Made by a program: the position numbers and the translations under genes. Below the pieces are notes generated by a model. The model had not been told where the DNA came from and searched no databases. It saw only the letters and a list, made by a program, of their open reading frames with translations. This document shows, piece after piece, positions 8,974-50,654 of a stretch of 59,548 nucleotides of DNA. The DNA comes from a virus: positions 1 to 59,548 of IMG/VR virus record IMGVR_UViG_3300009108_000011; one strand, given 5' to 3'. Numbering within the stretch: position 1 is the stretch's first letter; the number at the start of each line of letters is the position of its first letter.

Positions 8974-9960
8974 CTACTCTTCTGCTGTTTGGTTGTTTTT
9001 ACATTCTATGGTTACTGATTTTACTCTCCAAGCAATGTTTTCAAACACTGGTTCATTTGGTGCAATTCCTTGAATGTCTAAACTATCTGGTGACAAACCT
9101 GTACCTGTAATTTTAATCTCTTCATTTGCGTTTTTCTGGAATAATATCTCTAGTTCTGGTGAACCTCCAACTGTCTCTGAGAATGTTCCACTTGTTCCCT
9201 TTGACACTTGCTCTAAGACATCTTCTAAGATTGTTTTATTTAAGTGTGATGCTTTGAATGATCCTGTGATATCTAATACCTGTCTGTATGTATCTACAGC
9301 TTGATTTGAGTTTAATCCATATAATAATGTGGTGTTCTGTGCAATTTGTAAGTTTAGGTCTTGTACTTGTGCCAATACACTTCCACCATATTTTAATTGT
9401 GCGTGGGCAAATGTGAATGCTCCGTGATTTAATGTTGGTTCTGATGGTGCAGTTCCAAATGTTGTTGCTGGTGCGTCTTCTTTTCCATATGTTGCTGATA
9501 ATGAACAATCTACTGTTGATCCTATTGATGTTGTTATACCTAATGTAGTCGCTACACATCCTTTTAGTGTTCTTACTATATCTGCGTTAGATGTGTCTCC
9601 TGCGTTAAAACCCACTTCAACCTGAAATGATCTTGGTTGTTTATTAATACCATTTGATGCGTGTGGATAAGTATGAGTATATGGATCTGAACTTCCTGTG
9701 GTACTAGGTGCTCCGAAAAATGCTCCCAAAATCCAAGGATTACTTAATACAAAATCTACTGAAATATCTCCTGCTTGTGTACCATATGCAAAACTTTCAT
9801 ATGTTAATTGATTTAATGCAGGTAAGTCAATTCTATTATGTGTTAAACTCCAAGAACTTAATGCGTCTTTTAAGCCAAATTTCTTATCTACTGTGGCTGA
9901 ACCACCATAAGTTGATTCATATCCATACTTAACATACGATTGTGCACCTGTTCTAACCAT
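8974..9960 (-). CDS. Major tail tube protein
   Basis: The 328-residue protein fits long-tailed-virus tube proteins. It begins AQSYVKYGYESTYGG and carries the family's alternating strands with GDISVDFVLSNPWILGAFFG and SFQVEVGF. It lies between tail-terminator-like connectors and the chaperones, the standard position. TTTAAATATC centred about 26 bp upstream suggests its own strong leaderless promoter, fitting a highly expressed virion protein. No sheath gene is seen nearby, so the tail is probably non-contractile. Confidence 0.8.
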   Translation of the reverse strand: MVRTGAQSYVKYGYESTYGGSATVDKKFGLKDALSSWSLTHNRIDLPALNQLTYESFAYGTQAGDISVDFVLSNPWILGAFFGAPSTTGSSDPYTHTYPHASNGINKQPRSFQVEVGFNAGDTSNADIVRTLKGCVATTLGITTSIGSTVDCSLSATYGKEDAPATTFGTAPSEPTLNHGAFTFAHAQLKYGGSVLAQVQDLNLQIAQNTTLLYGLNSNQAVDTYRQVLDITGSFKASHLNKTILEDVLEQVSKGTSGTFSETVGGSPELEILFQKNANEEIKITGTGLSPDSLDIQGIAPNEPVFENIAWRVKSVTIECKNNQTAEE

Positions 9961-23559: not shown

Positions 23560-23810
23560 TGGGTTATAAACAACTGGCAAAGGTAATATGTGTGGCGTGC
23601 AGCGAGCCGTTAGGCGAGCACTCGAAAAGAGATTTGGTGCGTTGTTTATTTCGGGTTCAAGGTACGATGGTTAGTGATGGTATTGAAAATACCAGTGATG
23701 GCATTTCTGCCCAAGAGGGCATTTCTGCCCAAGATGGTTATTCAGATGAGGATTTAGCAGATGGAAGAAATGAAGGACATATAAGGGGGTTTGATTCACA
23801 CATTGGTTAA
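23559..23810 (+). CDS. 83-residue protein with short internal tandem repeat
   Basis: The ATG at 23559 overlaps the upstream stop; a TTG 3 nt earlier is possible. VICVACSEP is a lone CxxC. The middle holds a duplicated 18-bp unit encoding GISAQ(E/D), and the C-terminal part contains GRNEGHI, encoded by a 23-nt sequence found again in the 166-residue gene at 34215. Function unknown. Confidence 0.5.
   Translation: MGYKQLAKVICVACSEPLGEHSKRDLVRCLFRVQGTMVSDGIENTSDGISAQEGISAQDGYSDEDLADGRNEGHIRGFDSHIG
23700..23735 (+). repeat. Tandem 18-bp repeat inside the 83-residue gene
   Basis: Two copies of GGCATTTCTGCCCAAGA(G/T) lie head to tail and in frame, differing only at the last base. Confidence 0.75.
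23763..23785 (+). repeat. 23-nt dispersed repeat, copy 1
   Basis: This 23-nt segment, beginning GGAAGAAATGAAGGAC, is identical to 34371-34393 and encodes GRNEGHI in frame in both genes. Confidence 0.7.
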
Positions 23811-23811
23811 G

Positions 23812-23886
23812 ATGGAGACCCTGAGAGACTTTGAGATGTATCAGATGTTTAAGGGTAAGAAAAAGAAGAAGGTTAAGAAGAAATGA
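23812..23886 (+). CDS. 24-residue lysine-rich micro-ORF
   Basis: METLRDFEMYQMFKGK is followed by a run of lysines. The start follows the upstream stop by 1 nt and its TGA overlaps the next ATG, so it may be translated or may only couple translation. Confidence 0.35.
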   Translation: METLRDFEMYQMFKGKKKKKVKKK

Positions 23887-24023
23887 AAATTGATCTAGAT
23901 ATACCGAAAGGATTTGAAGCTGAAATCAGATTATATTGTTCTACTTGTCAAGAAGAAGTAGTAGGAGATGATTATAAGAGACATGAATGTGAGGAATGGA
24001 GAAGATATGCCAAGAGAACATAA
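23883..24023 (+). CDS. 46-residue C2HC-type zinc finger protein
   Basis: YCSTCQEEV followed by YKRHECEEW gives Cys-x2-Cys...His-x-Cys, a compact zinc finger. It overlaps both neighbours (4 nt upstream, 17 nt with the HicA-like gene). Confidence 0.55.
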   Translation: MKIDLDIPKGFEAEIRLYCSTCQEEVVGDDYKRHECEEWRRYAKRT

Positions 24024-26618: not shown

Positions 26619-27080
26619 ATGACCGAAACATTTGACGAAGTAAATAAGACCTGCAAGGTTAGTCTTAACAGTTCTTATGTATACTCATTCGTTAGACCAC
26701 AAGCAGAGATAGAACGTAAAGAGCCTGTCACTATTGATGTAAGAAATATTAACGCACAGTTAATAGTAAATAATGATAGTGCTGGAACTTCAATAGATAA
26801 TATCACTACGAACTTTACAACTAGACCAGTTACCTTTGAGTGTAATGATTGTAACTGTGAAGTTGAACAATCAGTAACATTCAATGAGGCTATAGATATA
26901 ATAGAATCAGGTGGCTCATGTGAATGTTGTACTAGTGGTGAGCATGATATAGATATTGAAGAGATTAGGAGTGAAGCACATGAATTTAGTACATGTTCAG
27001 ATGAAATGTATGGTACAGTAAAATGTAAACGCTGTCATGAAGACGTAGATGTATCACTAAGAATGGAGGTACAAAGTTAA
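26619..27080 (+). CDS. 153-residue Cys-rich protein
   Basis: The C-terminal half holds several metal-binding-like clusters: FECNDCNCEV, GSCECCTSGEH and VKCKRCHEDV. GAAGAGGTTAAG precedes the ATG. It ends on the start of the AAA+ gene (1-nt overlap), so it is translationally linked to it. Confidence 0.6.
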   Translation: MTETFDEVNKTCKVSLNSSYVYSFVRPQAEIERKEPVTIDVRNINAQLIVNNDSAGTSIDNITTNFTTRPVTFECNDCNCEVEQSVTFNEAIDIIESGGSCECCTSGEHDIDIEEIRSEAHEFSTCSDEMYGTVKCKRCHEDVDVSLRMEVQS

Positions 27081-28162
27081 TGAGATATAAAAACTCACGT
27101 AGTACTGAACCAACTGGTGTTACTAGTAAACTAGGAAATGGTGAAGATAACGAACACATTGTTAAAGCTTGTGATATTGCAGAAAACCTTGCAATTAATA
27201 CAACAGCAACCAATGACGATGTAACATATGCACCCGTTGACTATGAGAATGCATTCATTCCATATAGAATAGGTAAGTATGAAGATGTTATGGGATTAAA
27301 GCATGAGTTATACAACCATGCTATGACCAGTGACCAACCTATACTTTTGATAGGTGATAAAGGTTCAGGTAAAACTATGACTGTTCATGACTTGGCTCGT
27401 GATTTATATGATGATGGTGTACTTGGTGGTATGATATCCATGCAAGGTAACTTCAACACAAGTGATAAACATATGATATCTTATAATAGATTGAAGGGTT
27501 TATCTGGTGAGACTGTTAAAGGCTTTGGTATTAATGTAGTATGCTTAGGCAATCACTTTAGTGAGGGTAAGTATGCTAACAATCCAAAGTTAGTCATAGC
27601 ATATGTTGATGAACTTCCTAACATGCCAACAGAAACTAGTATTATACTCGCATCATTATTAGATGGTAGACGTATGATACAGACACAAGATGGTCATACA
27701 TGGAGACTCAATGATAATGCTAGAGTAATATTCATTGCAAGTGGAAACCCTAGTCATTATGCTGGTGTAAATACATTGCAAGAAGCATTGATGTCTAGAT
27801 TCACTGGATATTATATTGGTTATCCAAGTGACGATAGTATCTGTAAGATGATTGACTTTGATAAGTATGGTGTGCCTGAAGATGTGGTTAATCCATTGCT
27901 TACATTGTGTAGTGACATACATAGTATGAAACAGAAACAGGATGTTGATTATGTTATCAGCCCTCGTGACCTATCATACTTTGCACAAGAGTATAGTAAT
28001 AGGATGAATAAGTATGAACCTAAAGAGACAGCCGAACAAGCATTGGCTGGTGCTTTAGAGAAAACTATACTTATTAACTATCAAGACTTGCAAGAGAGAC
28101 AGTTAGTTAAGACATCTATCGAAGAGACCTTTGGCATATCTATGCAGACCAAGTACTCTTAG
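27080..28162 (+). CDS. MoxR/CobS-type AAA+ ATPase
   Basis: This 360-residue ATPase has Walker A GDKGSGKT (92-99), Walker B LVIAYVDELPNM, a sensor-1 region IFIASGNPSHYAG and EALMSRFTGYYIGYP with the arginine finger. This is the MoxR clade, whose members remodel metalloproteins or complexes together with a VWA-domain partner. The VWA partner is encoded two micro-genes downstream. Similar pairs in phages are often labelled cobS/cobT, but no other cobalamin gene is present. Confidence 0.8.
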   Translation: MRYKNSRSTEPTGVTSKLGNGEDNEHIVKACDIAENLAINTTATNDDVTYAPVDYENAFIPYRIGKYEDVMGLKHELYNHAMTSDQPILLIGDKGSGKTMTVHDLARDLYDDGVLGGMISMQGNFNTSDKHMISYNRLKGLSGETVKGFGINVVCLGNHFSEGKYANNPKLVIAYVDELPNMPTETSIILASLLDGRRMIQTQDGHTWRLNDNARVIFIASGNPSHYAGVNTLQEALMSRFTGYYIGYPSDDSICKMIDFDKYGVPEDVVNPLLTLCSDIHSMKQKQDVDYVISPRDLSYFAQEYSNRMNKYEPKETAEQALAGALEKTILINYQDLQERQLVKTSIEETFGISMQTKYS

Positions 28163-28164
28163 AC

Positions 28165-28335
28165 ATGCAAGGTAAATTGTCCAGAGTTATGAACGTCACT
28201 ATTGAGACAGCATATATATTCTGTGTTAATTGTGGTGAACAAAACAACATAGGTAATGATAAGTGTCATGTATGTGATAGTGTATTAGTTACAAGCAACG
28301 ATGACTACTGTTGTTTATGTGGTTGTGAACAATGA
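28165..28335 (+). CDS. 56-residue double zinc-ribbon protein
   Basis: FCVNCGEQN, CHVCDSV and CCLCGCE give three CxxC-type pairs. It lies between the AAA+ ATPase and the VWA gene, starting 2 nt after the ATPase stop, and may bind that complex. Confidence 0.6.
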   Translation: MQGKLSRVMNVTIETAYIFCVNCGEQNNIGNDKCHVCDSVLVTSNDDYCCLCGCEQ

Positions 28336-28478
28336 AGATAAAGTTATGGTTTTACAACCATCTCTTTTATCCTTTGTATAAGGATTACATTCAAGAGGAA
28401 TGTGATGACTATCTTTCAGAGAATGCTAAAGAATATGCACATGAATATATGTCAGACATGTGGAACGATAGGGATTAG
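28332..28478 (+). CDS. 48-residue acidic helical protein
   Basis: The ATG overlaps the preceding TGA. WFYNHLFYPLYKDYIQEECD is followed by an acidic helix. It sits 6 nt before the VWA gene. Confidence 0.5.
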   Translation: MKIKLWFYNHLFYPLYKDYIQEECDDYLSENAKEYAHEYMSDMWNDRD

Positions 28479-28484
28479 TTAGAG

Positions 28485-30671
28485 ATGCCTTTCAAAAAGA
28501 GTGCAGTTAAACGCACTAAATCTACAGACATATTGTCAGCTAACGAATACAATCGTAAACGTACTGATGTAGTTGAGGAACTAAAGAACAAACGTATCAA
28601 TGTAGCATACAGGAATACTAATAGGAACTATGTTACAGCAGACAGTTATAGTAATGATATCATGCACGTAACATTAGCATCGCCAGCAGTTAAAGGCATA
28701 CCAATACGCACTGCCTTATGGCATGAGTTATCACATGTGTTACATAATTCATTTGCTACTAGTTTCTTTAATGCATCCCATGACTTGGCAAAGAAACAAG
28801 TGGATAGAATACTGGATAAGAATCCAATATTTGCTGAGGTTGATAAAGCATTACGTTCTGTTAGAGATCCATTTACAAATGCTCCAGATAGTTTAGATAA
28901 GTCTCAGTATGTGAATCAACTCATGCAACTATATCGTATGGGTTTTAATGCTATTGAAGACCAACGTATTGAATCATTAACTGGTAGTGTATGGTTAGGC
29001 ACTGGTAAGATGTTCAATAAGATGCGTGACTCATTAGGTGAAAGACTGTTAGAAAACTTGAAGAGTAATGTCAACAGTGAGGATGGTATGGATAACCCAA
29101 TCAATCATTTGTTATTGATAAGATTCAATCAAGCAGGTGCAGTAAGAGCAGACCATAAATTACATAAGGCTATGACTGATGTGGCAGGTAAAGATGAGTT
29201 CGGTTCTATAGTAATATGGAAACGTTATGTTAAACCAGTCATAGATAAATGGTTTACTAAAAGGATAGAGAAACAAGCAGAGAAATATAATGAGTCTTTA
29301 TCTAAAAACATTGAGCAATTAGAACAGACTAAATCTAAAGAAGAGGAGTGTGAAGAAAAGTCCACTGCCCTCGAAAAGATATCAAACTTTGGTCAAGATT
29401 ATGTATACGAAAAGATGAATGACTATGATAAGATGTTAAATAGGATTGGTACTGAAGAGACAAAAACAATACGAGATAAAGAAAACCGATATGATAAATC
29501 CGAGAGAGTTTATCGTAAACTCAATGTGCATAAGTATGATAAACGTGAGGAGCTTGATGAACTGAAGAGAGAAATCAATAGTTCTAGAACTTCAATGTTG
29601 AATGAAGTACATGATATGGGAAAAGAGACCACAAGGGATGGTGTAAATACTTCTGTATCAAAACAAACTGGTATGGATAGAAACCAATGTGATATAGGTG
29701 AGGATGATGAAGATGCATTATCTGAACGTTGTAAGGAAGAAGCCTTAGACCTAGACTCTGAAGATATTGATGAAGATAACATGGATACTATGTTAGCAGA
29801 GTCTGAAGAAGGTGGTACTGGACAAGTTAAAGAGATAAAGAATGGATTGTCTGGTATGGCTATACCTAAAGAACCTTCTAACATACATATTGTTTCTAGA
29901 GTACAGAAAGATAACAACGTTGATTCAACATTAGTTACTGGTCTTAGAACCATAGTTAGTAAGTTGAAGGAACGAAACGTACCAACCTTATCTGATACTG
30001 GTGATGAGTTTGATGAGGATGAATACATTAACCTTAAGCAACGTGGCTATGGTGATGTGTTTAAACAAAACAAACTACAGAATGGTATAGATATACTTGT
30101 GAGTATTGATGGCTCTGGTAGTATGGAATCTAATGAGAATATAGTTGAGGCACGTAAGTTAGTGTCTAGTTTGTTTAAGGTTGCTCAAACTATATCAGAG
30201 TTAACTGTTGAAGCAAACGTATGGTCATCTAATACTGATGGTGATGTTGGTATGACAACAATCAGAACACTAGCAGAGTGTAAGAACATATCAACCAGTG
30301 TTTCAGGTGGTAGATACTATGAGACACCAACACATGAAGCAATGGCATATTCAGCACGCAGGTTAAAAAGAATGCAAGGCAGACATAAGATGTTGATACT
30401 TATCACTGATGGTTATCCACAGTTCAGTAAGGGTGGCGTTCATATGTCAAACAAAGCAATAGTAACTGCATGCAAGAAGAATCTTCGTAAAGTTTTACAG
30501 GTAACAGACAATGTTATATGTATTAACGTTGAGCCTCGTGGTTATACAACTTGTGAGATGCTTAAGGATATCTTTGGTAAAAGATATGTTGAGTATGAGG
30601 GTGTGAAGAAAGCAAATGAATTCGTATCTAAAACATTGAAGCGTAAGTTCATTGAGGTATTAAGGAGATGA
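28485..30671 (+). CDS. HExxH metallopeptidase-like/VWA protein, partner of MoxR ATPase
   Basis: The 728-residue protein has WHELSHVLHNSF at 79-90 (HExxH, His80/Glu81/His84), a helical and very acidic centre (about 265-440), and a C-terminal von Willebrand A domain with MIDAS motif DGSGS (542-546), TPTHEAM and LILITDGYPQ. This layout resembles the predicted metallopeptidase-plus-VWA family that works with MoxR ATPases, and CobT/BchD-type subunits. Location after the AAA+ gene supports a joint machine. Substrate unknown. Confidence 0.75.
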   Translation: MPFKKSAVKRTKSTDILSANEYNRKRTDVVEELKNKRINVAYRNTNRNYVTADSYSNDIMHVTLASPAVKGIPIRTALWHELSHVLHNSFATSFFNASHDLAKKQVDRILDKNPIFAEVDKALRSVRDPFTNAPDSLDKSQYVNQLMQLYRMGFNAIEDQRIESLTGSVWLGTGKMFNKMRDSLGERLLENLKSNVNSEDGMDNPINHLLLIRFNQAGAVRADHKLHKAMTDVAGKDEFGSIVIWKRYVKPVIDKWFTKRIEKQAEKYNESLSKNIEQLEQTKSKEEECEEKSTALEKISNFGQDYVYEKMNDYDKMLNRIGTEETKTIRDKENRYDKSERVYRKLNVHKYDKREELDELKREINSSRTSMLNEVHDMGKETTRDGVNTSVSKQTGMDRNQCDIGEDDEDALSERCKEEALDLDSEDIDEDNMDTMLAESEEGGTGQVKEIKNGLSGMAIPKEPSNIHIVSRVQKDNNVDSTLVTGLRTIVSKLKERNVPTLSDTGDEFDEDEYINLKQRGYGDVFKQNKLQNGIDILVSIDGSGSMESNENIVEARKLVSSLFKVAQTISELTVEANVWSSNTDGDVGMTTIRTLAECKNISTSVSGGRYYETPTHEAMAYSARRLKRMQGRHKMLILITDGYPQFSKGGVHMSNKAIVTACKKNLRKVLQVTDNVICINVEPRGYTTCEMLKDIFGKRYVEYEGVKKANEFVSKTLKRKFIEVLRR

Positions 30672-32620: not shown

Positions 32621-32762
32621 AGAATATAGTCATCCAACATACATAACAAAGTGTGATGATTGTGGTCATACTGATAACTTCATAGTTATTCACGCACCAC
32701 ATGACTATAAGCATATAGTAAAATGCAAGTGTGGAGGATATAAGATTGACCTCTTCTACTGA
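32613..32762 (+). CDS. 49-residue zinc-ribbon protein
   Basis: ITKCDDCGHTDNF and IVKCKCGGYK form a typical CxxC/CxC ribbon of about 25 residues, as in rubredoxin-like or transcription-factor ribbons. Confidence 0.55.
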   Translation: MAEEYSHPTYITKCDDCGHTDNFIVIHAPHDYKHIVKCKCGGYKIDLFY

Positions 32763-32937
32763 CCCAGCAACAGACCATATGTTATGTATGGCTGTTGACT
32801 GTGAGTCAATCGCTACTAAAAGCGTACTCGCAATAGTTGACGTTGAGGGTAAGGAAGAGAAGCATAAGATAAACTTCTGTCGTGACCACTATCTAAAACA
32901 AATGGCATATCAATATGCAAAGGAAGAAGAGAAATGA
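32731..32937 (+). CDS. 68-residue Cys/His protein
   Basis: The frame opens with GTG at 32731; TTG at 32746 or ATG at 32779 are alternatives. MLCMAVDCESIAT and FCRDHYLKQ look like a small zinc finger, similar to those found in archaeal and phage genomes. It overlaps both neighbours. Confidence 0.5.
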   Translation: MEDIRLTSSTDPATDHMLCMAVDCESIATKSVLAIVDVEGKEEKHKINFCRDHYLKQMAYQYAKEEEK

Positions 32938-33425
32938 CCACCGAAGAATACGGTGGCTCTTCTCCTGCCTTCCATACAATGACTGATGCATATAATGGTG
33001 CATTAAATAGTAGAACACAGAACATGAAAGTTAGACGAGTGAATAAAACAACACTTGGTATGTTTACTGTAAGTACATTAAGATTACCACGAGACATGGA
33101 TGACTTTCATCACGGAAAAGTATATGAAACTATGATATGGTATAATGAATTTGGTTCTGATAAAGAAATGAATCCGAAATACCATTTCACCGAAAGACCT
33201 GTTGACACATGGATGAACTATCAAGAAAGATGTCGTACATATAGTGAGGCAGTGCAACAACACAAAGATGCTGTTATGTATATAGAACTCTTCGTTAATT
33301 ATGATGAGCCTGATGAGGAGACATGTCAATGTGGTAATAAAAAACCAGAGGGTGATAAACTCTGTTTACATTGTTGGTGTGAAGAACATAATATGTCTTG
33401 TACTTGTGGGTGCGAATCGAAATGA
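32934..33425 (+). CDS. 163-residue protein with C-terminal zinc cluster
   Basis: The first 120 residues show no known motif. The end has TCQCGNKKPEGD, LCLHCWCEEHN and SCTCGCESK, a dense double zinc site. It ends in the junction sequence AATCGAAATGA, the first of five in a row. Confidence 0.55.
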   Translation: MTTEEYGGSSPAFHTMTDAYNGALNSRTQNMKVRRVNKTTLGMFTVSTLRLPRDMDDFHHGKVYETMIWYNEFGSDKEMNPKYHFTERPVDTWMNYQERCRTYSEAVQQHKDAVMYIELFVNYDEPDEETCQCGNKKPEGDKLCLHCWCEEHNMSCTCGCESK

Positions 33426-33730
33426 AAGAAGAATTCACAGAAGAAGATTATGAAATCGAAATGAAATGTGAAATATGTGGAGAACCATCTGGTTGTGGAG
33501 ATTACCATGAAACCTGTCAATGTGCTGAACCTATTAGAGATAAACATTCTAGTGAAACGTGTAAAATATGCGAGAAAACATTATGGGATGATGATCCAAT
33601 TTATGAAGAATGTGAACAATGTAAGAAAATTGTAGAATCTATTAATGATGAAGGTAAATGTGAGGAATGTGAAACACACATTTCAATGGAAGATATAAGG
33701 CAAATAGCTATGAGGAATCGAAATGAATGA
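33422..33730 (+). CDS. 102-residue multi-zinc-finger protein
   Basis: Cysteine pairs MKCEICGEP, TCKICEKT, ECEQCKKI and KCEECETH suggest two or more zinc fingers. The N terminus MKEEFTEED recurs in the gene at 34048. An internal AATCGAAATGA precedes an in-frame ATG at 33461 (MKCEICGEP), so a shorter product may exist or the N terminus may have been added by recombination. Confidence 0.6.
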   Translation: MKEEFTEEDYEIEMKCEICGEPSGCGDYHETCQCAEPIRDKHSSETCKICEKTLWDDDPIYEECEQCKKIVESINDEGKCEECETHISMEDIRQIAMRNRNE

Positions 33731-33875
33731 CTATATTATAGAGCAAATAGATAGTATAATGCAAAAACTATCATTGGTTAGATGTCAAGGTATGAATATT
33801 GGAATCAAAGATGAAGTCAATTTTGATTTAGATAATCTAAGAGATTGGATTATAGGTAGTGAGGAATCGAAATGA
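33723..33875 (+). CDS. 50-residue unknown protein
   Basis: The ORF MNDYIIEQIDSIMQKLSLVR lies between two copies of the junction sequence and overlaps both neighbours. No motif. Confidence 0.5.
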   Translation: MNDYIIEQIDSIMQKLSLVRCQGMNIGIKDEVNFDLDNLRDWIIGSEESK

Positions 33876-34051
33876 CTAGATACTATGTAACGGAATACCA
33901 AGATCAGATTACTGATGAGTATGTAGTATTAAATCCACCTGAAGTAATTCATGCAGAACAAGGGTGCGTTCAATGTGCAATAAGTAAATACACTGAATTA
34001 CATCCTGACCGTTGGACATTTCATGGTGCTGTTACGGAGGAATCGAAATGA
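33872..34051 (+). CDS. 59-residue unknown protein with CxxC
   Basis: It begins TRYYVTEYQDQITDEYVVLN, contains GCVQCAISK and ends EESK at the junction sequence. It starts on the preceding TGA (ATGA). Confidence 0.5.
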   Translation: MTRYYVTEYQDQITDEYVVLNPPEVIHAEQGCVQCAISKYTELHPDRWTFHGAVTEESK

Positions 34052-34209
34052 AAGAAGAATTCACAGAAGAAGATTGTGAATCTTGCTACAATCTAGGGAA
34101 AAGTTATTGTAATCATGGTCATCAGGTTGGTTGTTGCTGTTCTGAATGTACTGCTGATTGGCGACATGATAACAACCTAGATGAAAATGATGAACCTATG
34201 AAGGATTAA
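34048..34209 (+). CDS. 53-residue Cys-rich protein
   Basis: The start MKEEFTEEDCESCYNLGKSY shares its first nine residues and about 36 nt of DNA with the gene at 33422. CESC, YCNHGHQ and CCCSECTAD suggest a zinc site. Confidence 0.55.
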   Translation: MKEEFTEEDCESCYNLGKSYCNHGHQVGCCCSECTADWRHDNNLDENDEPMKD

Positions 34210-34214
34210 TCGAA

Positions 34215-34715
34215 ATGAGCCGTAAGATATCAGAGGAAGCTTGTCAAGCTTTACTCTTGGGTAAACCATATAAGAAAAGTAACACAGTAGTTGAAAGATT
34301 AGATGTATTTACATGGATAATGAAATTGTTTGGTAATCCTATAGCTCATTGTAGACCTCGGGGTACATTAGGAAGAAATGAAGGACATATAAGTAGTACG
34401 CCTGAATATCTTCAGATATGTGATGGTCGACACCAATCAATGACTACTAAAGAACGTCTTAATGTATTACCTAACGTTAGCATACATCAGGATAACTTTC
34501 AATGGTATATCAATGACTGTAAATGGGAAGATGCAGCATACGATAATAAAAAGTCTAATCCGTATGGATGGATTAATGTCATAGTAGATTATAACTATAT
34601 GAGATTCAAGAAGAATATACCACCCGTAGTAATCACACAGATAAAGTATTCAGCAAAAACATATGAGGAACTACGCAATCAGTATAGATATAAATATGGA
34701 GAAGACAATAAATGA
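34215..34715 (+). CDS. 166-residue unknown protein
   Basis: It starts at the fifth junction copy. LGRNEGHISSTPEYLQICDG includes the GRNEGHI peptide shared at DNA level with the 83-residue gene at 23559. Conserved-looking His, Arg and Asn residues around it could be catalytic, but no nuclease family can be claimed. Confidence 0.55.
   Translation: MSRKISEEACQALLLGKPYKKSNTVVERLDVFTWIMKLFGNPIAHCRPRGTLGRNEGHISSTPEYLQICDGRHQSMTTKERLNVLPNVSIHQDNFQWYINDCKWEDAAYDNKKSNPYGWINVIVDYNYMRFKKNIPPVVITQIKYSAKTYEELRNQYRYKYGEDNK
34371..34393 (+). repeat. 23-nt dispersed repeat, copy 2
   Basis: Identical to 23763-23785, within the 166-residue gene, in the same reading frame. Confidence 0.7.
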
Positions 34716-37012: not shown

Positions 37013-37357
37013 TTAAGTACTGTCATATCCCCTTAATAAAACTTCCCACACCTTCTCTTTCTTTTTGACGTTTATTGACATGACTAACAGTGATTTATCT
37101 GACATAAAATCTATGATGTCTTTATTACTAGCCCATGCGTTTGTTTTTATCTGTAGATACACTGCCTCACCATCAGGATTAAAACATATACCATCGAATA
37201 GATTCCACAAGTCTAATGCTCTATACCATTCTCCTCTTGTATAAACTAAATCTTGTCTCCTAACATGTGGTTTTAACCATATTTCATCATACCCATTTTC
37301 TAATAACCATTCAACTGCTTTCCTATTAGAGAATCGCATTCTCTGTCTAGGGTTCAT
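37013..37357 (-). CDS. PD-(D/E)XK nuclease-like protein B
   Basis: In 114 residues, LDLWNLFDGICFNPDGEAVY followed by LQIKTN gives the Asp...Q-x-K core of the restriction fold, after a basic N-terminal helix. It overlaps radA by 4 nt. Like protein A it may cut branched or damaged DNA during viral replication. Confidence 0.6.
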   Translation of the reverse strand: MNPRQRMRFSNRKAVEWLLENGYDEIWLKPHVRRQDLVYTRGEWYRALDLWNLFDGICFNPDGEAVYLQIKTNAWASNKDIIDFMSDKSLLVMSINVKKKEKVWEVLLRGYDST

Positions 37358-38376
37358 TCAGGATCTTTTATACCTTCTACACTTAAAACGAATTCTGCAT
37401 CTGCTTGTGGATGTTCAGGAGAGTCAACCATTCTTGCTATTCTTTTCTTACCTGATTTCTTAAAGTATATTCTATATGTTGAGGCATGTCCAACAACGTT
37501 ACCTCCTATAGGTTTAATTGGATCACCAAACATCATTGCAGGATCAGATTGAACCTGATTAGTAAACACAACTGTGTTTCTGAAATAATATGATATGTTT
37601 TTGAGATGTGTCATTAATCTAGCTAACTGCATTTGCCTCTCAGCTAGTGTACCTCTACCTAAATATTCTTCTCTAAACTGTCCTATTGCACCATCTAATA
37701 TTAATAAAGGTGGTGCTTTATCCATAAGTATATTTGATAAGTTATTAATAGTACCCATTAATTGTTCTGTGTTAGGACAATAGAAATAAAATATCCTGTT
37801 AATATATTCCATTGCTTGCTCTTTATCTTCAACATATCCTCTAGCCATAAGTATCTCTACTATTCTTCTAGGTTTGAACGTGTCTTCACAATCAATCCAT
37901 ATAACATTATGCCCATCATGTATTGTTTCCACTGTAAGACTATTACAAAATTGTGTCTTACCTGATCCAAATTCTCCATATACTTCATATGTTGCTTCAG
38001 GTTTTATACCACCACCTAATAAATCATCTACGCCTTTAGCTTTAGTTTCTATTGCTGGTAGATTCTCTTGGTATTCCATTAATTCTGCTGTTGACATATC
38101 AGACTTCCTAATGAAACCTTTATCTTCTAAAATCTTTTGGCAACCAAATACCCAACTATCTGCCTTGTGTTTGTCTACTCCTGCTATCTCAGATACTTCT
38201 TTAGCACCTCTTACACATATATCTATAATTGATGTTAAACCAAACGCTTCTAGTTTCTTTTTAGTAACAGCTCCAACACCCTCTAATTGATCTACACTAT
38301 AATCCAGTGTTTCTTCTTCAATTTCTGTCTCTCTGACATCTTCTAAATCCACATTATCTTCTTTGTTTCTCGCCAT
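37354..38376 (-). CDS. radA: RadA-family recombinase
   Basis: The 340-residue protein is an archaeal-type strand-exchange recombinase. An N-terminal helix-hairpin-helix (QLEGVGAVTKKKLEAFGLTS, 30-50) precedes the RecA core with Walker A GEFGSGKT (134-141), Walker B LLILDGAIGQF and loop-2 region NQVQSDPAMMFGDP. The length matches cellular RadA. It probably promotes recombination-dependent replication and repair of the viral genome. It follows mcm by 11 nt. Confidence 0.9.
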   Translation of the reverse strand: MARNKEDNVDLEDVRETEIEEETLDYSVDQLEGVGAVTKKKLEAFGLTSIIDICVRGAKEVSEIAGVDKHKADSWVFGCQKILEDKGFIRKSDMSTAELMEYQENLPAIETKAKGVDDLLGGGIKPEATYEVYGEFGSGKTQFCNSLTVETIHDGHNVIWIDCEDTFKPRRIVEILMARGYVEDKEQAMEYINRIFYFYCPNTEQLMGTINNLSNILMDKAPPLLILDGAIGQFREEYLGRGTLAERQMQLARLMTHLKNISYYFRNTVVFTNQVQSDPAMMFGDPIKPIGGNVVGHASTYRIYFKKSGKKRIARMVDSPEHPQADAEFVLSVEGIKDPE

Positions 38377-38387
38377 AATAAACCTTC

Positions 38388-40358
38388 CTATATCTTTTGG
38401 AATGACCCATCCTTATTTAGTTTAACGATACAATTCTGCTCCCATAATCCAAATATCTTTTTAGCCTGTTCTTCGGTAAACCCATCCTCTTTGCCTAACA
38501 TCTGAATAAACAATGTATGTCTAACTTTACCATCTTTGTTTTTACATTCATTCCACACCCTATGTGCTGTTTGTTCCTTTGATTCTGACCTTGTAGTAGA
38601 ACCAACAGTGTTACCATTCTTATTCTTACCTGTCTCAAAATCAAATCCAAATGATTCAAACATACTCTTAATGATAGTTTCAACGGCATCTACATCGTTT
38701 TTATTAATTTCATTTCTAAGGTGAAGTTTTGCATGTGCAGTAGATAATCTTACGATAGCCTCTAACTGTCTAGTACCTATAGTAATACTTGAATCCTCTT
38801 TTGCAGATATATCTCTCATCTTTTTATATATATTTAAGATGTGATCTTGTGACTCTGAAGTTAAAACAGGGCTGATTGTTCTTGCATGGTTTAAATACGC
38901 AGATAATAATTCTGGTTCTAATAACACATGTGATTTTTCTATGCCATCAACAAATGTATTAAGGATAAATTTTGCCTTACGTTCATCATCATCAATGTTA
39001 ATAGTATCTCTAATTAAGAATATTAGATCAAACCTTGATAATAATGGTGGTGGAACATCTATGTTTGTCGCCAAAGATTCCTCTATGTCATATGTACCAA
39101 ACTTTGGATTGGCTGCTGCCAGTATTGCTGTCTTTGCTGGTAATGTCATTCTAAACCCTGCTTTTGCTATAGATACTGTTTGTTGCTCCATAGCCTCATG
39201 TAAACCTGATCTATCTATAGTATTCATTTTGTCAAATTCATCAATAAAAGCAAAACCACCACTACATAATGGTAATACACCTGCCTGTGCTACATGTTTT
39301 CCATTATCCAGTTTAACTAAACCTATTGTGAGACCTGCTGCTGATGAACCTTTACCAGACGTATAGATGGATTTTTGAGTTATTTTATTTGCAAATTTCA
39401 ACAACTCTGATTTAGCCATTGATGGATCTCCAACTAACAGAACATTAATATCACCACGCTTTAATCCACCTACACCCCCCACTAATTGAAGTAAGATAGA
39501 CTTCTTTAGTGTCTCATATCCGTAAATTTGTGGTGCAAAACTACTACAAATCTTAGTTAAAAAATCATCCTGATCAACTAAATTATTAATAACTTTTAAC
39601 TCCTCATCTGTTAATAACACATCACATGAATTATCTAAGTTACTCTCTGTTATTATATCTATGAGAATTTTGTTTTCGTTGGTCTTTGTATTAAAGACAG
39701 ATCTATACAAACCTGTAATTCTTTTCTTTTGACCCACAAACACATTACCAACTAACCCACCTGTTACTAAGCCCTCTAATATTACAGGTGAACTTGATAT
39801 AGAATCCTCCATAAACTCCTGTAGTAAGACATGTTGAAGATTATCTGTTTTTGCTGTTTCCTCATCTACCTCTAATAATGCTTTTTTACATGAAAAATTA
39901 TCACAGTGAATAGTAGGTAACTTCTTATTTATGTTACATTTAACAAAAGTCCTCTTATAGCACTTTGGGCAAACAAGGTCACATTCAGTAGTATATGTCA
40001 TTTGGTTCTCTGCTGCAATTACATCACAATCGAAGGTTACTATCAGATTCTCATGATTCTTAGAATTAAGATCATGCATAAATAACTTATTTGACGTAAC
40101 AACCCTAAATTGAAGATTTTTGTATATTTGCTCGACATCAATATCAGACTTTTTTTCAGAGATAATTCTTAAAACCACAGTGCGTAATATATCAATAAAT
40201 TTACCATTAGTATCTGAATATATGTCAAGAATGACATCATTATTAATTTCTAGTGTATATGTTGAATTTGGTCGTAATGCATCAATAATAGTTGTATGCT
40301 CAACTGCTGATAAATAATCATATAATTCGCCTTCCATATAGGATATTGTGTTCATCAT
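38388..40358 (-). CDS. mcm: MCM replicative helicase
   Basis: This 656-residue MCM has all main parts: N-terminal domain with a zinc site (CDLVCPKCYK, then IHCDNFSC), Walker A GDPSMAKS (310-317), GKGSSAAGLT, Walker B FAFIDEFDKM (Asp373/Glu374), sensor 1 AAANPKFGTYD, the arginine finger LLSRFDLIFLI, and a C-terminal winged-helix region. It unwinds the viral origin and probably recruits host polymerase. It overlaps the stop of the 106-residue gene, so the two are coupled. Confidence 0.95.
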   Translation of the reverse strand: MMNTISYMEGELYDYLSAVEHTTIIDALRPNSTYTLEINNDVILDIYSDTNGKFIDILRTVVLRIISEKKSDIDVEQIYKNLQFRVVTSNKLFMHDLNSKNHENLIVTFDCDVIAAENQMTYTTECDLVCPKCYKRTFVKCNINKKLPTIHCDNFSCKKALLEVDEETAKTDNLQHVLLQEFMEDSISSSPVILEGLVTGGLVGNVFVGQKKRITGLYRSVFNTKTNENKILIDIITESNLDNSCDVLLTDEELKVINNLVDQDDFLTKICSSFAPQIYGYETLKKSILLQLVGGVGGLKRGDINVLLVGDPSMAKSELLKFANKITQKSIYTSGKGSSAAGLTIGLVKLDNGKHVAQAGVLPLCSGGFAFIDEFDKMNTIDRSGLHEAMEQQTVSIAKAGFRMTLPAKTAILAAANPKFGTYDIEESLATNIDVPPPLLSRFDLIFLIRDTINIDDDERKAKFILNTFVDGIEKSHVLLEPELLSAYLNHARTISPVLTSESQDHILNIYKKMRDISAKEDSSITIGTRQLEAIVRLSTAHAKLHLRNEINKNDVDAVETIIKSMFESFGFDFETGKNKNGNTVGSTTRSESKEQTAHRVWNECKNKDGKVRHTLFIQMLGKEDGFTEEQAKKIFGLWEQNCIVKLNKDGSFQKI

Positions 40359-43661: not shown

Positions 43662-44054
43662 CTAGTCTTTTTGTAGTCTAGTGATGTAACATAACTGGTC
43701 TAGAATCCTTGATCTTATCTGACCAAAAACATGTGTGTTCACATCTTGCTCAGGATACATTGCTTTTGTTAGGTGGTGTGCCGTTACAAAGAACTGCATC
43801 CAATCATCAGCAACTGACTTTACACTATCACTTACTGTGACTTCAGGAATTTTTGTTATAATAATATCCTTGTTTTCCTTAAATGTAGCTTGGGTATATG
43901 TCGAGATTGTTCCACCCTGTCCTTGAGTAAAACATTCTTTATCACCACATATTGCCTTTGGTGCTTTTTGATAATATATATTATCACCTACAGCCCAGCT
44001 CTCTCCACATATCTTACAACCACCAGCAAATTTTGCACTGATTATAGAACCCAT
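43662..44054 (-). CDS. 130-residue protein with N-terminal zinc finger
   Basis: The ATG at 44054 gives GSIISAKFAGGCKICGESWA, then ICGDKECF, a four-cysteine finger at the N terminus of an otherwise helical protein. An ATG 168 nt upstream is rejected because the added peptide is the antisense of the matrixin signal region. TTTATATTATG lies 26 bp upstream. Confidence 0.6.
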   Translation of the reverse strand: MGSIISAKFAGGCKICGESWAVGDNIYYQKAPKAICGDKECFTQGQGGTISTYTQATFKENKDIIITKIPEVTVSDSVKSVADDWMQFFVTAHHLTKAMYPEQDVNTHVFGQIRSRILDQLCYITRLQKD

Positions 44055-44058
44055 GAAA

Positions 44059-44084
44059 TTTATAAATAACACACATAATATAAA
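44059..44084. promoter_or_regulatory. Divergent promoter pair
   Basis: TTTATAAAT (44059-44067, plus) is centred 26 bp before a TTG at 44089, and TTTATATTATG (44074-44084, minus) is centred about 25 bp before the ATG at 44054. The two TATA boxes nearly touch, each lying close to the other gene's start. Confidence 0.55.
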
Positions 44085-44088
44085 CGTA

Positions 44089-44922
44089 TTGGATCTCGTT
44101 GAAAAGTTAATATGGATAGTATGCATAGTATCGTTAGTATGCTTTTTTGGCATAGTATCAGCAGAAGCTGAGATACCAAAAGGTGATAAATATGAGACAC
44201 TTGGTATAAGGCATGACACCAAACCTGATGTTTGTCTGTTTGAACCAAACCCAACACATGTTGATTGGGATTATTGGAAGTCCGTGGAACATGAATCATG
44301 GAGAGCAATTCTAGAATGGCAAATTCAAATGTCAGAATTTTTACCTGAAGGTGATTGGTCTATGTTTATTCACCCAACAGTACCATATCACGAACATTGG
44401 AATAAAACACCAGATGATTATAGGCATTGTACTATATTTCTTACCTACGAATACACAAACGAAGATTCAGATAGTGGTGCACTCGGTAAGACTGCAATCG
44501 ATTTCAGAAAAAGCTCACATAAATTTACATATATAGTTGTTTACCTATATGCAGAAGAGAGAAATAAGATCGTTATTGATTTAGAAAATACTGAAAGAGA
44601 TGAAAACGGAGTTATTAGATTTAACCTAGATCTTACTAAGAAACCCATTCCTCTTAATTCAATTCATAATATAGTTTTACATGAACTAGGGCATGGCTTA
44701 GGATTAGGACACTATATATCAAGTGTAAATAATGATAGGTCTGTGATGGTTAGATCACTTGACCCGTTTGATGAAGAACAGTTATTTGAAATACAAATAT
44801 CAGATAAGTTTATGCTCAGTAAAATCTATGGTATAAATGGATATTATAAACCACACCCACATTTCATATACGACCTCTGTGTATTTACAGAGAAGGGTAC
44901 AAAGTCAAATGGATGTTACTAG
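44089..44922 (+). CDS. Secreted matrixin-type metalloprotease
   Basis: HELGHGLGLGH (numbered from the upstream ATG, His210/Glu211/His214/His220) is the full metzincin zinc motif HExxHxxGxxH, and SVMV fits the Met-turn. A signal peptide (LIWIVCIVSLVCFFGIVSA) leads the protein out of the cell. TTG at 44089 matches TATA spacing; ATG at 44053 adds 12 residues but would overlap the divergent gene's start. The enzyme may degrade S-layer or envelope proteins at entry or release, or be host-derived. It is about 277 residues. Confidence 0.8.
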   Translation: MDLVEKLIWIVCIVSLVCFFGIVSAEAEIPKGDKYETLGIRHDTKPDVCLFEPNPTHVDWDYWKSVEHESWRAILEWQIQMSEFLPEGDWSMFIHPTVPYHEHWNKTPDDYRHCTIFLTYEYTNEDSDSGALGKTAIDFRKSSHKFTYIVVYLYAEERNKIVIDLENTERDENGVIRFNLDLTKKPIPLNSIHNIVLHELGHGLGLGHYISSVNNDRSVMVRSLDPFDEEQLFEIQISDKFMLSKIYGINGYYKPHPHFIYDLCVFTEKGTKSNGCY

Positions 44923-49271: not shown

Positions 49272-50654
49272 CTAGAACCCAAGAGCCTTCTTTATCCCCT
49301 CTCCAACTGGTAAAACATGCCAACCTTCACCAGATGTTACAGCCCTACAGGCTAGAACAAGACTATCTGGATAGTCATCATGCTCATCTGATTTAATTTT
49401 CATTATACCTGTCTCGGTATATTCTCGTCTTAAATATGATAATTGGTAGACCATTTTATTGATTTGTTTTAATGTTATTTTATGATTTTCAAATAATAAT
49501 CTCAAGTTTTTATACATATCAGCCTTCTCTTGTAGAGTAAACATGACACCTCTACATGGTAATCCTTGCTCCCTAGCAAGATCTATAAGTCCACCACCAA
49601 GTCCTGTCTCATCACAATATATTGTTTCTACATTATAATCTGCTGCCAACTGACCCATTCTTCCACATACATCTACGACATTAGATTGTGATTCTGATTC
49701 TACAGACTCTAGAAATGCATGGTCTTTTTCATCAACTGCTAATAAAGTATATACAGTTTCATCCCTTCCTGTCCTTGCAACATCCACACCCATATAATAT
49801 CTTACCCTACCATATGGTTTCTTATCATTTATAGCTTCCATAATTAATGAGTTTGGTATCAATGCGTCACCAATATCTAGGAACTCACCCTCGACTTCCT
49901 GAACATATTCCTCTCTCGTAAGTTTTTTAATCTCTTCTATAAATACAGGATCTTCTTTTACTAATGGGTTTTCTATTGATTTAACATGGAATTCTGTCCA
50001 CATACCATCAGAATTTGTGGGTTTTGAATTCATACAAGCTTCATAGAAATAACCAGATTTTGAGAAAGGTGTAGATGTAAGCCATACCTTTGCATGAGTA
50101 GCCATACCAGAAGGCAAGAATGCTCTAAGTATATCAGTCTTAATGAAAGAACACTCGTCAGCTATAATAACATGAGGAGAATAACCTCTGAGAGAAACAC
50201 CAGTTTCACCTGTTGCCCTCGTGATAATTTTCGTAGTTCCTGAACCGTCTAAGAATCCAACTGTCATTTCTGTCTGAGTATTTCTTAATACATATCCAGA
50301 CAAGAAATCATTCTTCATTATAAGATCTCTTATTCTATTAAACATGATAGAAGATTGATTTTGTGTAGGTGCTGCTATAACTATAATACACTCATGCTTT
50401 ACAGTATCCATAAGTATTGGTGCAAAGAATGCAAAGTGTATCGTCTTTACAGCAGTCGACATAGTTTTTCCTACCTGTCTTCCAGACCTATATACTATGA
50501 ACCTGTCATCACAGTCAACATATTTTACATTATATGGAAATAACTCATGCCCTAGAAATATCTTACTAAAAATACTTGGTGATTTAGCACAGTCAGCTAT
50601 AGTCTGCATGAAATTTTTTCGTTCTTCTATGACTTCTTGATCTGGTCTTGCCAT
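49272..50654 (-). CDS. terL: Terminase large subunit
   Basis: This 460-residue motor packages DNA into proheads and cuts the concatemer. The ATPase has Walker A GRQVGKT (58-64), Walker B HVIIADECSF and coupling motif WLTSTPFS. The RNase H-fold nuclease has YMGVDVARTGRDET, TIYCDETGLGG and DDYPDSLVLA with the expected acidic residues. Its ATG overlaps the stop of the preceding C2H2 micro-gene. Confidence 0.95.
   Translation of the reverse strand: MARPDQEVIEERKNFMQTIADCAKSPSIFSKIFLGHELFPYNVKYVDCDDRFIVYRSGRQVGKTMSTAVKTIHFAFFAPILMDTVKHECIIVIAAPTQNQSSIMFNRIRDLIMKNDFLSGYVLRNTQTEMTVGFLDGSGTTKIITRATGETGVSLRGYSPHVIIADECSFIKTDILRAFLPSGMATHAKVWLTSTPFSKSGYFYEACMNSKPTNSDGMWTEFHVKSIENPLVKEDPVFIEEIKKLTREEYVQEVEGEFLDIGDALIPNSLIMEAINDKKPYGRVRYYMGVDVARTGRDETVYTLLAVDEKDHAFLESVESESQSNVVDVCGRMGQLAADYNVETIYCDETGLGGGLIDLAREQGLPCRGVMFTLQEKADMYKNLRLLFENHKITLKQINKMVYQLSYLRREYTETGIMKIKSDEHDDYPDSLVLACRAVTSGEGWHVLPVGEGIKKALGF

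Follow-up and report, generated by a model that had tools for sequence, protein, structure and literature searches.

An 11-nt word at consecutive start codons as a probable joint for gene exchange in the early operon of a tailed virus

The early region of the virus analysed here holds five consecutive genes whose start codons are all supplied by exact copies of one 11-nt word, AATCGAAATGA. We consider it probable that the word is an extended stop-start joint of a mosaic early operon, whose genes would be exchanged start to start by short-homology recombination. The word array is of a known kind, the boundary sequences of phages, and is an unusually clear variant of it.

The virus and the word array

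The window, that is, the whole stretch of DNA that was analysed, is the 59.5-kb record IMGVR_UViG_3300009108_000011 of an uncultured virus (Table 1). Judging from its genes, the virus is probably tailed and its host archaeal. The terminase has its best named match in Halogranum tailed virus 1 (31%), and the named matches covering most of RadA are from haloarchaeal tailed viruses (about 25%), which together make an archaeal host likely; regarding the host, two scans of genome contigs for RadA found none. RadA is the sole recombinase among the ten window proteins scanned. Relatives, all metagenomic contigs with genes called by a simple custom caller, were collected through RadA (about 100 contigs) and the MoxR-like ATPase encoded in the early region (34 contigs), and in the closest of them RadA identity is no higher than about 75%. 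Single-query searches with window genes 34215 and 27080 were uninformative. At 27080-30671 the window carries the gene of the MoxR-like AAA ATPase and, behind it, that of a large protein with a VWA domain; in the relatives this pair constitutes the conserved frame of an otherwise variable early region. A candidate matrixin-type metalloprotease, just under the Pfam cut-off, lies at 44053-44922.

The six exact copies of the word lie within 33415-34218, all on the plus strand, and no other exact copy was found on either strand of the whole 59.5-kb window. A previous inspection of the letters, hereafter the sequence-only reading, had described five consecutive junctions built on the word, each providing the next start, and one further copy inside a gene; both descriptions were confirmed at the exact positions, the internal copy being in frame. 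AT dinucleotide runs aside, at least four copies within 1 kb are reached by the word and its one-base shifts and by no other 11-mer; across 60 order-3 Markov sequences, such 11-mers stayed at three copies per kb or fewer. These controls, with the junction permutations given below, rule out a chance origin of the array.

Table 1. Coordinates of window features (genes of the array are named by their first position)
Feature	Position	Strand	Remarks
Gene two upstream of array start	32731..32937	+	joint here AAGAGAA before ATGA
F80 in window	23883..24023	+	46 aa; 95.7% identical over 116 nt to word-led L209 copy
41-nt block, copy 1	33414..33454	+	shared head of gene 33422; includes word
Word copy 1	33415..33425	+	ATG of gene 33422; overlaps stop of gene 32934-33425
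Word-led gene	33422..33730	+	102 aa, several CxxC
Internal word copy	33454..33464	+	in frame inside gene 33422, at end of 41-nt repeat
Word copy	33716..33726	+	ATG of gene 33723; upstream ORF crosses in another frame, stop 33728-33730
Word-led gene	33723..33875	+	50 aa, C-terminus EESK
Word copy	33865..33875	+	ATGA overlap; ATG of gene 33872
Word-led gene	33872..34051	+	59 aa, C-terminus EESK
41-nt block, copy 2	34040..34080	+	shared head of gene 34048; one mismatch to copy 1
Word copy	34041..34051	+	ATGA overlap; ATG of gene 34048
Word-led gene	34048..34209	+	53 aa, Cys-rich
Word copy	34208..34218	+	ATG of gene 34215; upstream gene's TAA (34207-34209) overlaps word
Word-led gene	34215..34715	+	166 aa, Pfam Kyano_Gp96 match, E=6e-11
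RadA/Rad51 recombinase	37354..38376	-
MCM helicase	38388..40358
Terminase large subunit	49272..50654

At three of the five joints the word's own TGA builds a strict 4-nt ATGA stop-start overlap. With respect to the upstream gene, three reading frames of the word occur: the commonest reads ESK and stops at TGA, the copy at 33716 is read through, and at 34208 the upstream stop is TAA. Constant across the copies is the position of the downstream ATG. The 41-nt block that heads genes 33422 and 34048 starts a single base ahead of the word and, in gene 33422, reaches the first base of the internal copy at 33454. The two genes had been said to share about 36 nt after the word; the sharing stands, with a measured extent of 29 nt beyond it. 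This arrangement suggests that an 89-aa cassette, to which a 13-codon head has since been fused, once started at the internal copy.

The sequence-only reading further took the small genes to encode zinc proteins. The description suits 33422 and 34048 and does not suit 33723, and CxxC motifs are not enriched in word-led genes (10 of 19, versus 204 of 526; p=0.24), so that zinc proteins as a cargo class are not supported. The Pfam family Kyano_Gp96, matched by the last word-led gene, was named from cyanophages and is encountered here in a probably archaeal virus.

The word in related viruses

All related loci together contain 22 distinct exact copies of the word, in 11 viruses, and each of the 22 opens an ORF of at least 35 aa. 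An upstream ORF (at least 30 aa) ends at the word's TGA in 19 of them. Nearly all copies are placed at overlaps or gaps of a few nucleotides, and most carry a Shine-Dalgarno-like stretch that, in this collection of exact copies, is more variable than the spacer. The genes so started are non-homologous, the same word standing before unrelated genes in deep lineages. Among the long relatives 8 of 45 have the word (14 copies), and the reversed control gave none. When 1068 distinct tight junctions were considered, AATCGAA preceded the ATG 15 times, against a mean of 0.2 and a maximum of 4 for its permutations. Near-matches of AATCGAA at these junctions showed no excess (7 versus 4.6 with one mismatch, 34 versus 34 with two). 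The invariance of each column of the word is partly given by construction, exact copies having been collected, while the absence of near-matches is an independent statement; such an absence is unexpected of an ancient footprint subject to drift and could instead reflect a strong constraint.

The distribution of the word is patchy. Most relatives lack it, and in the operons that have it the word occupies a minority of the junctions. Its carriers are scattered on the RadA tree, with 7 changes for 9 carriers (mean of shuffled trees, 8.2), so that inheritance of the word with a clade is unsupported. Word-led genes are neighbours far beyond expectation, forming 10 adjacent pairs versus 1.1 expected, a number that 0 of 20000 shuffles reached. 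At coding-strand gene starts, no other junction word attained a density of three copies per 1.5 kb in several relatives.

Two explanations other than the extended joint bear directly on these data. In the first, AATCGAA, standing between the Shine-Dalgarno and the ATG, would be a signal dedicated to initiation or regulation; the ribosome, an RNA or a viral protein would recognize it, and the expression of certain small genes would be set in this way. The constant distance to the ORF in 22 of 22 copies, the recurrence before unrelated genes in deep lineages, the lack of near-matches expected under strict constraint and, partly by construction, the lower variability of the spacer all agree with it. 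Against it stand the minority of junctions served within the same operons, the absence from most relatives and the clustering of the word where a signal would be spread. Moreover, the spacer brings no gain in pairing with the anti-Shine-Dalgarno sequence, since 69 of 210 permuted spacers pair more strongly; better pairing through the spacer was hence discarded. The dedicated coupling or initiation signal that the sequence-only reading had offered as its other option is not shown, given that most junctions lack the word, that pairing is not improved and that the distribution is patchy; we judge it possible, less supported than the extended joint, and on balance unlikely.

In the second explanation a functional C-terminal EESK would be common to unrelated proteins and the DNA word would simply follow from it. 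Most upstream genes do end in ESK, but TCG accounts for 3.5% of the serine codons in these viruses and appears in 14 of the 34 ESK-stop endings, all of them GAATCGAAATGA, which implies that DNA letters and not the peptide are shared. The word is also found in two other frames. The conserved peptide tail was rejected on codon use and frames, and we attach hardly any probability to it.

Gene exchange at joints with and without the word

The window array has no close relative, so cassette turnover at word joints has to be read from the relatives, where the comparisons support it. Three word-joint swaps can be read at the nucleotide level. L207 and L208 are the closest word-carrying pair. In them gene F79 is highly identical up to ..GAACGTGAGAGGAAATCGAAATGAC, homology stops right after ..GGAAATCGAAATGAC, and it is back at GAATCGAA(A/T)TGAGTAGATACTGC (also read GAATCGAA(A/T)TGAG), the start of F81. 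Between both genes L207 harbours genes of 43 and 53 aa, and L208 genes of 66, 156 and 84 aa.

The 43-aa gene of L207 is F80, a cassette of 41-46 aa present in three viruses (L207, L209 and the window) in three gene contexts, its edges mostly at start-codon joints. In L209 it also comes after the word, in another gene order. In the window it lies about 9.5 kb from the array, preceded by AAGAAGAA followed by ATGA, without the complete word, and its edges fall inside the joint. The segment common to L209 and the window has its left edge 3 nt ahead of the ATG and its right edge within the GAGGA of the following junction; its DNA is 95.7% identical although the RadA proteins of both viruses are about 72% identical. 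The comparison shows that at least one cassette was recently transferred between the window virus and a relative. No further F80 copies were found in IMG/VR beyond the two known ones. The L213 orthologue of the window gene at 32731 has the word as its tail, and different genes come next. The proposal that cassettes are swapped at the junctions, which was to be checked by gain, loss or reordering of genes exactly at the copies, was therefore supported in the relatives by L207/L208, F80 and L213, whereas the 11-mer did not prove to be a necessary site.

Indeed, the word is not required for precise gene swaps. Many neighbours differ between L214 and L217, both lacking it. At their readable joints the homology often reaches 4-5 nt beyond the A of the ATG, stopping right after ATGA, and at the opposite end its start is mostly located 0-13 nt upstream of the ATG (cases with indels are not placeable). 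Two neighbouring single-gene segments, at 6679-6975 in L220 and 2207-1634 in L249, are 98% and 97% identical in otherwise divergent viruses, with three of their four edges at start codons and no word. L214 and L298 have in common a 421-nt segment, 95% identical, both edges of which are 3 nt from a start codon. Altogether, 15 of the 47 edges of short shared segments fall within 8 nt of a start codon, compared with 9.5% expected (p=2e-5). The precision of swaps is the same whether or not a joint carries the word, the word joints being too few for a comparison of rates. Equal swaps without the word indicate that a start codon overlapped by the upstream stop constitutes the general joint, of which the 11-mer is an extended form. 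A second, longer joint repeat was observed in L207, where two consecutive unrelated genes (oriented positions 9104 and 9523) share a 33-nt tail with one mismatch, CATGATGATCC(T/G)AATGAGGGTATAACAAG followed by ATGA, ending in TAACAAG before the ATGA.

Taking into account that: (i) the L207/L208 swap is bounded by the word, and F80 is shared by divergent viruses; (ii) word copies bound the 41-nt repeat, word-led genes are adjacent, carriers are scattered on the RadA tree, and the word is either exact or absent; and (iii) start-to-start cassettes occur without the word, segment edges concentrate near starts, and the L207 tail is duplicated, we favour the extended joint. In this model, each small gene contains, within its last codons, a Shine-Dalgarno-like sequence that serves the gene behind it (often GGAGG, followed by AATCGAA). 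The upstream stop usually overlaps the next ATG, and translation of both genes would be coupled. With the Shine-Dalgarno in the upstream tail and a shared start codon, a unit from ATG to ATG would be self-sufficient, and its insertion, replacement or loss would leave translation intact. Units would be exchanged between viruses by recombination within the short identity of the joints, comprising at least ATGA and the Shine-Dalgarno, 11-16 nt when both partners carry the word and at times 37-41 nt, with RadA as one candidate enzyme. Insertion at an existing copy would leave one copy on either side, and copies would in this way accumulate side by side.

Precise edges at joints without the word imply that the same pattern could arise if breaks were random and selection then kept the intact genes. 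The word would then be a passenger of mosaicism by selection only, a chance tail that hitch-hiked with the survivors broken at gene edges and was duplicated in tandem. Besides the equal precision of wordless swaps, this explanation draws on the reuse of junction heptamers in other viruses. In 181 loci fetched by pattern, heptamers of any spacer were reused 14 times more within a locus than between loci, the chosen heptamers being left out and the between-locus comparison made at similar GC. Reuse within a locus never exceeded two occurrences, and genome-specific letter preferences contribute part of it. A passenger accords poorly with a single word standing before non-homologous genes in 11 viruses, and with no other junction word equalling its density in several relatives; we hold it to be improbable. 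Recombination at boundaries and illegitimate recombination followed by selection are not fully separated by the present data, the edges being precise with and without the word. More tentatively, the extended joint could be part of an integrase-free cassette platform in which the stop-start overlap is a universal joint and AATCGAAATGA, attachment-like and common to many viruses, actively concentrates insertions and builds arrays of accessory mini-genes, a possibility that we regard as doubtful. If true, any gene cut start to start would drop in functional, no integrase being needed.

An exact 23-nt repeat, GGAAGAAATGAAGGACATATAAG, occurs at 23763-23785 of the window, some 100 nt ahead of F80, and again at 34371-34393, within the gene that the last word copy starts. 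Both copies read GRNEGHI, and the repeat may be another exchanged fragment.

Relation to boundary sequences and other known systems

Mosaicism of phage genomes has been attributed either to homologous recombination at boundary sequences or to illegitimate recombination plus selection (PMC3233612, PMC3029335). In the boundary sequences of the Brujita and Island3 mycobacteriophages, as here, a short shared sequence lies at the edges of modules, and two consecutive Island3 genes share a tail of about 50 bp, as do the two genes of L207 (PMC3029335, PMC3233612). In the present viruses, different genomes do have one short sequence in common where exchanged modules begin and end (L207/L208; F80 in L207/L209). 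The present case differs in that one exact word is present in tandem arrays and across many viruses, with edges at the stop-start overlap and probably archaeal hosts. This virus group therefore bears on the dispute, as it offers a named word, tandem arrays, a close pair whose swap is bounded by the word on both sides and recently transferred single-gene cassettes cut at start codons, with matched wordless swaps as an internal control. It also suggests a design rule, by which placing the ribosome site of the next gene in the tail of the previous one makes genes interchangeable. The old question of how viruses shuffle their genes becomes testable at these start-codon joints.

By analogy, the closest regulatory parallel would be the start-associated sequences (SAS) of cluster K mycobacteriophages, whose consensus GGGATAGGAGCCC is located 3-7 bp upstream of the ATG and whose copies, mismatches being tolerated, are distributed across the right half of the genome, mostly ahead of genes with gaps above 50 bp (PMC3203893, PMC12699233). 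Both are short oriented repeats with a Shine-Dalgarno part beside the ATG of non-structural genes of different families, and all 22 word copies are oriented at translation starts of several families. In contrast to SAS, the word differs from the consensus and is continuous with the ATG, its copies are adjacent and exact or absent, and they are located in overlaps or very tight junctions instead of after gaps of more than 50 bp.

In overlapping gene pairs of archaea and bacteria, reinitiation depends on the Shine-Dalgarno to a varying degree (PMC6728339), in keeping with a joint able to function with several spacer words. In the ATGA termination-reinitiation pairs (PMC6728339), as in three of the five window joints, stop and start overlap, with a Shine-Dalgarno inside the upstream gene; the recurring spacer word is particular to the present case, and coupling here is a prediction from the letters. 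The nin region of lambda and P22 likewise has a row of small accessory genes with ATGA joints and recurring last letters, such as GCCGC or AGGCCGC before ATGA, although its word is different and looser and the hosts are bacterial. The word itself was not found in the fetched lambda and P22 sequence.

Among the matches listed in IMG/VR for GAGGAATCGAAATGA, 98 of 128 are junctions, and several phages have two or three copies. A one-base control was nearly as common at junctions among the matches listed (65% versus 73% for the word, with 5 versus 13 multi-copy loci; p=0.08), so the word was rejected as special among all phages, and most of the junction signal comes from the Shine-Dalgarno-ATGA frame. 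Unrelated, GC-richer phages (L016, L028, L078, L109, L024 and L052) have two or three joints of the GGAGGAATCGAAATGA type; similarity searches of L028 against named phages and E. coli records were uninformative. In these six, the same upstream joint is followed by different genes in different contigs.
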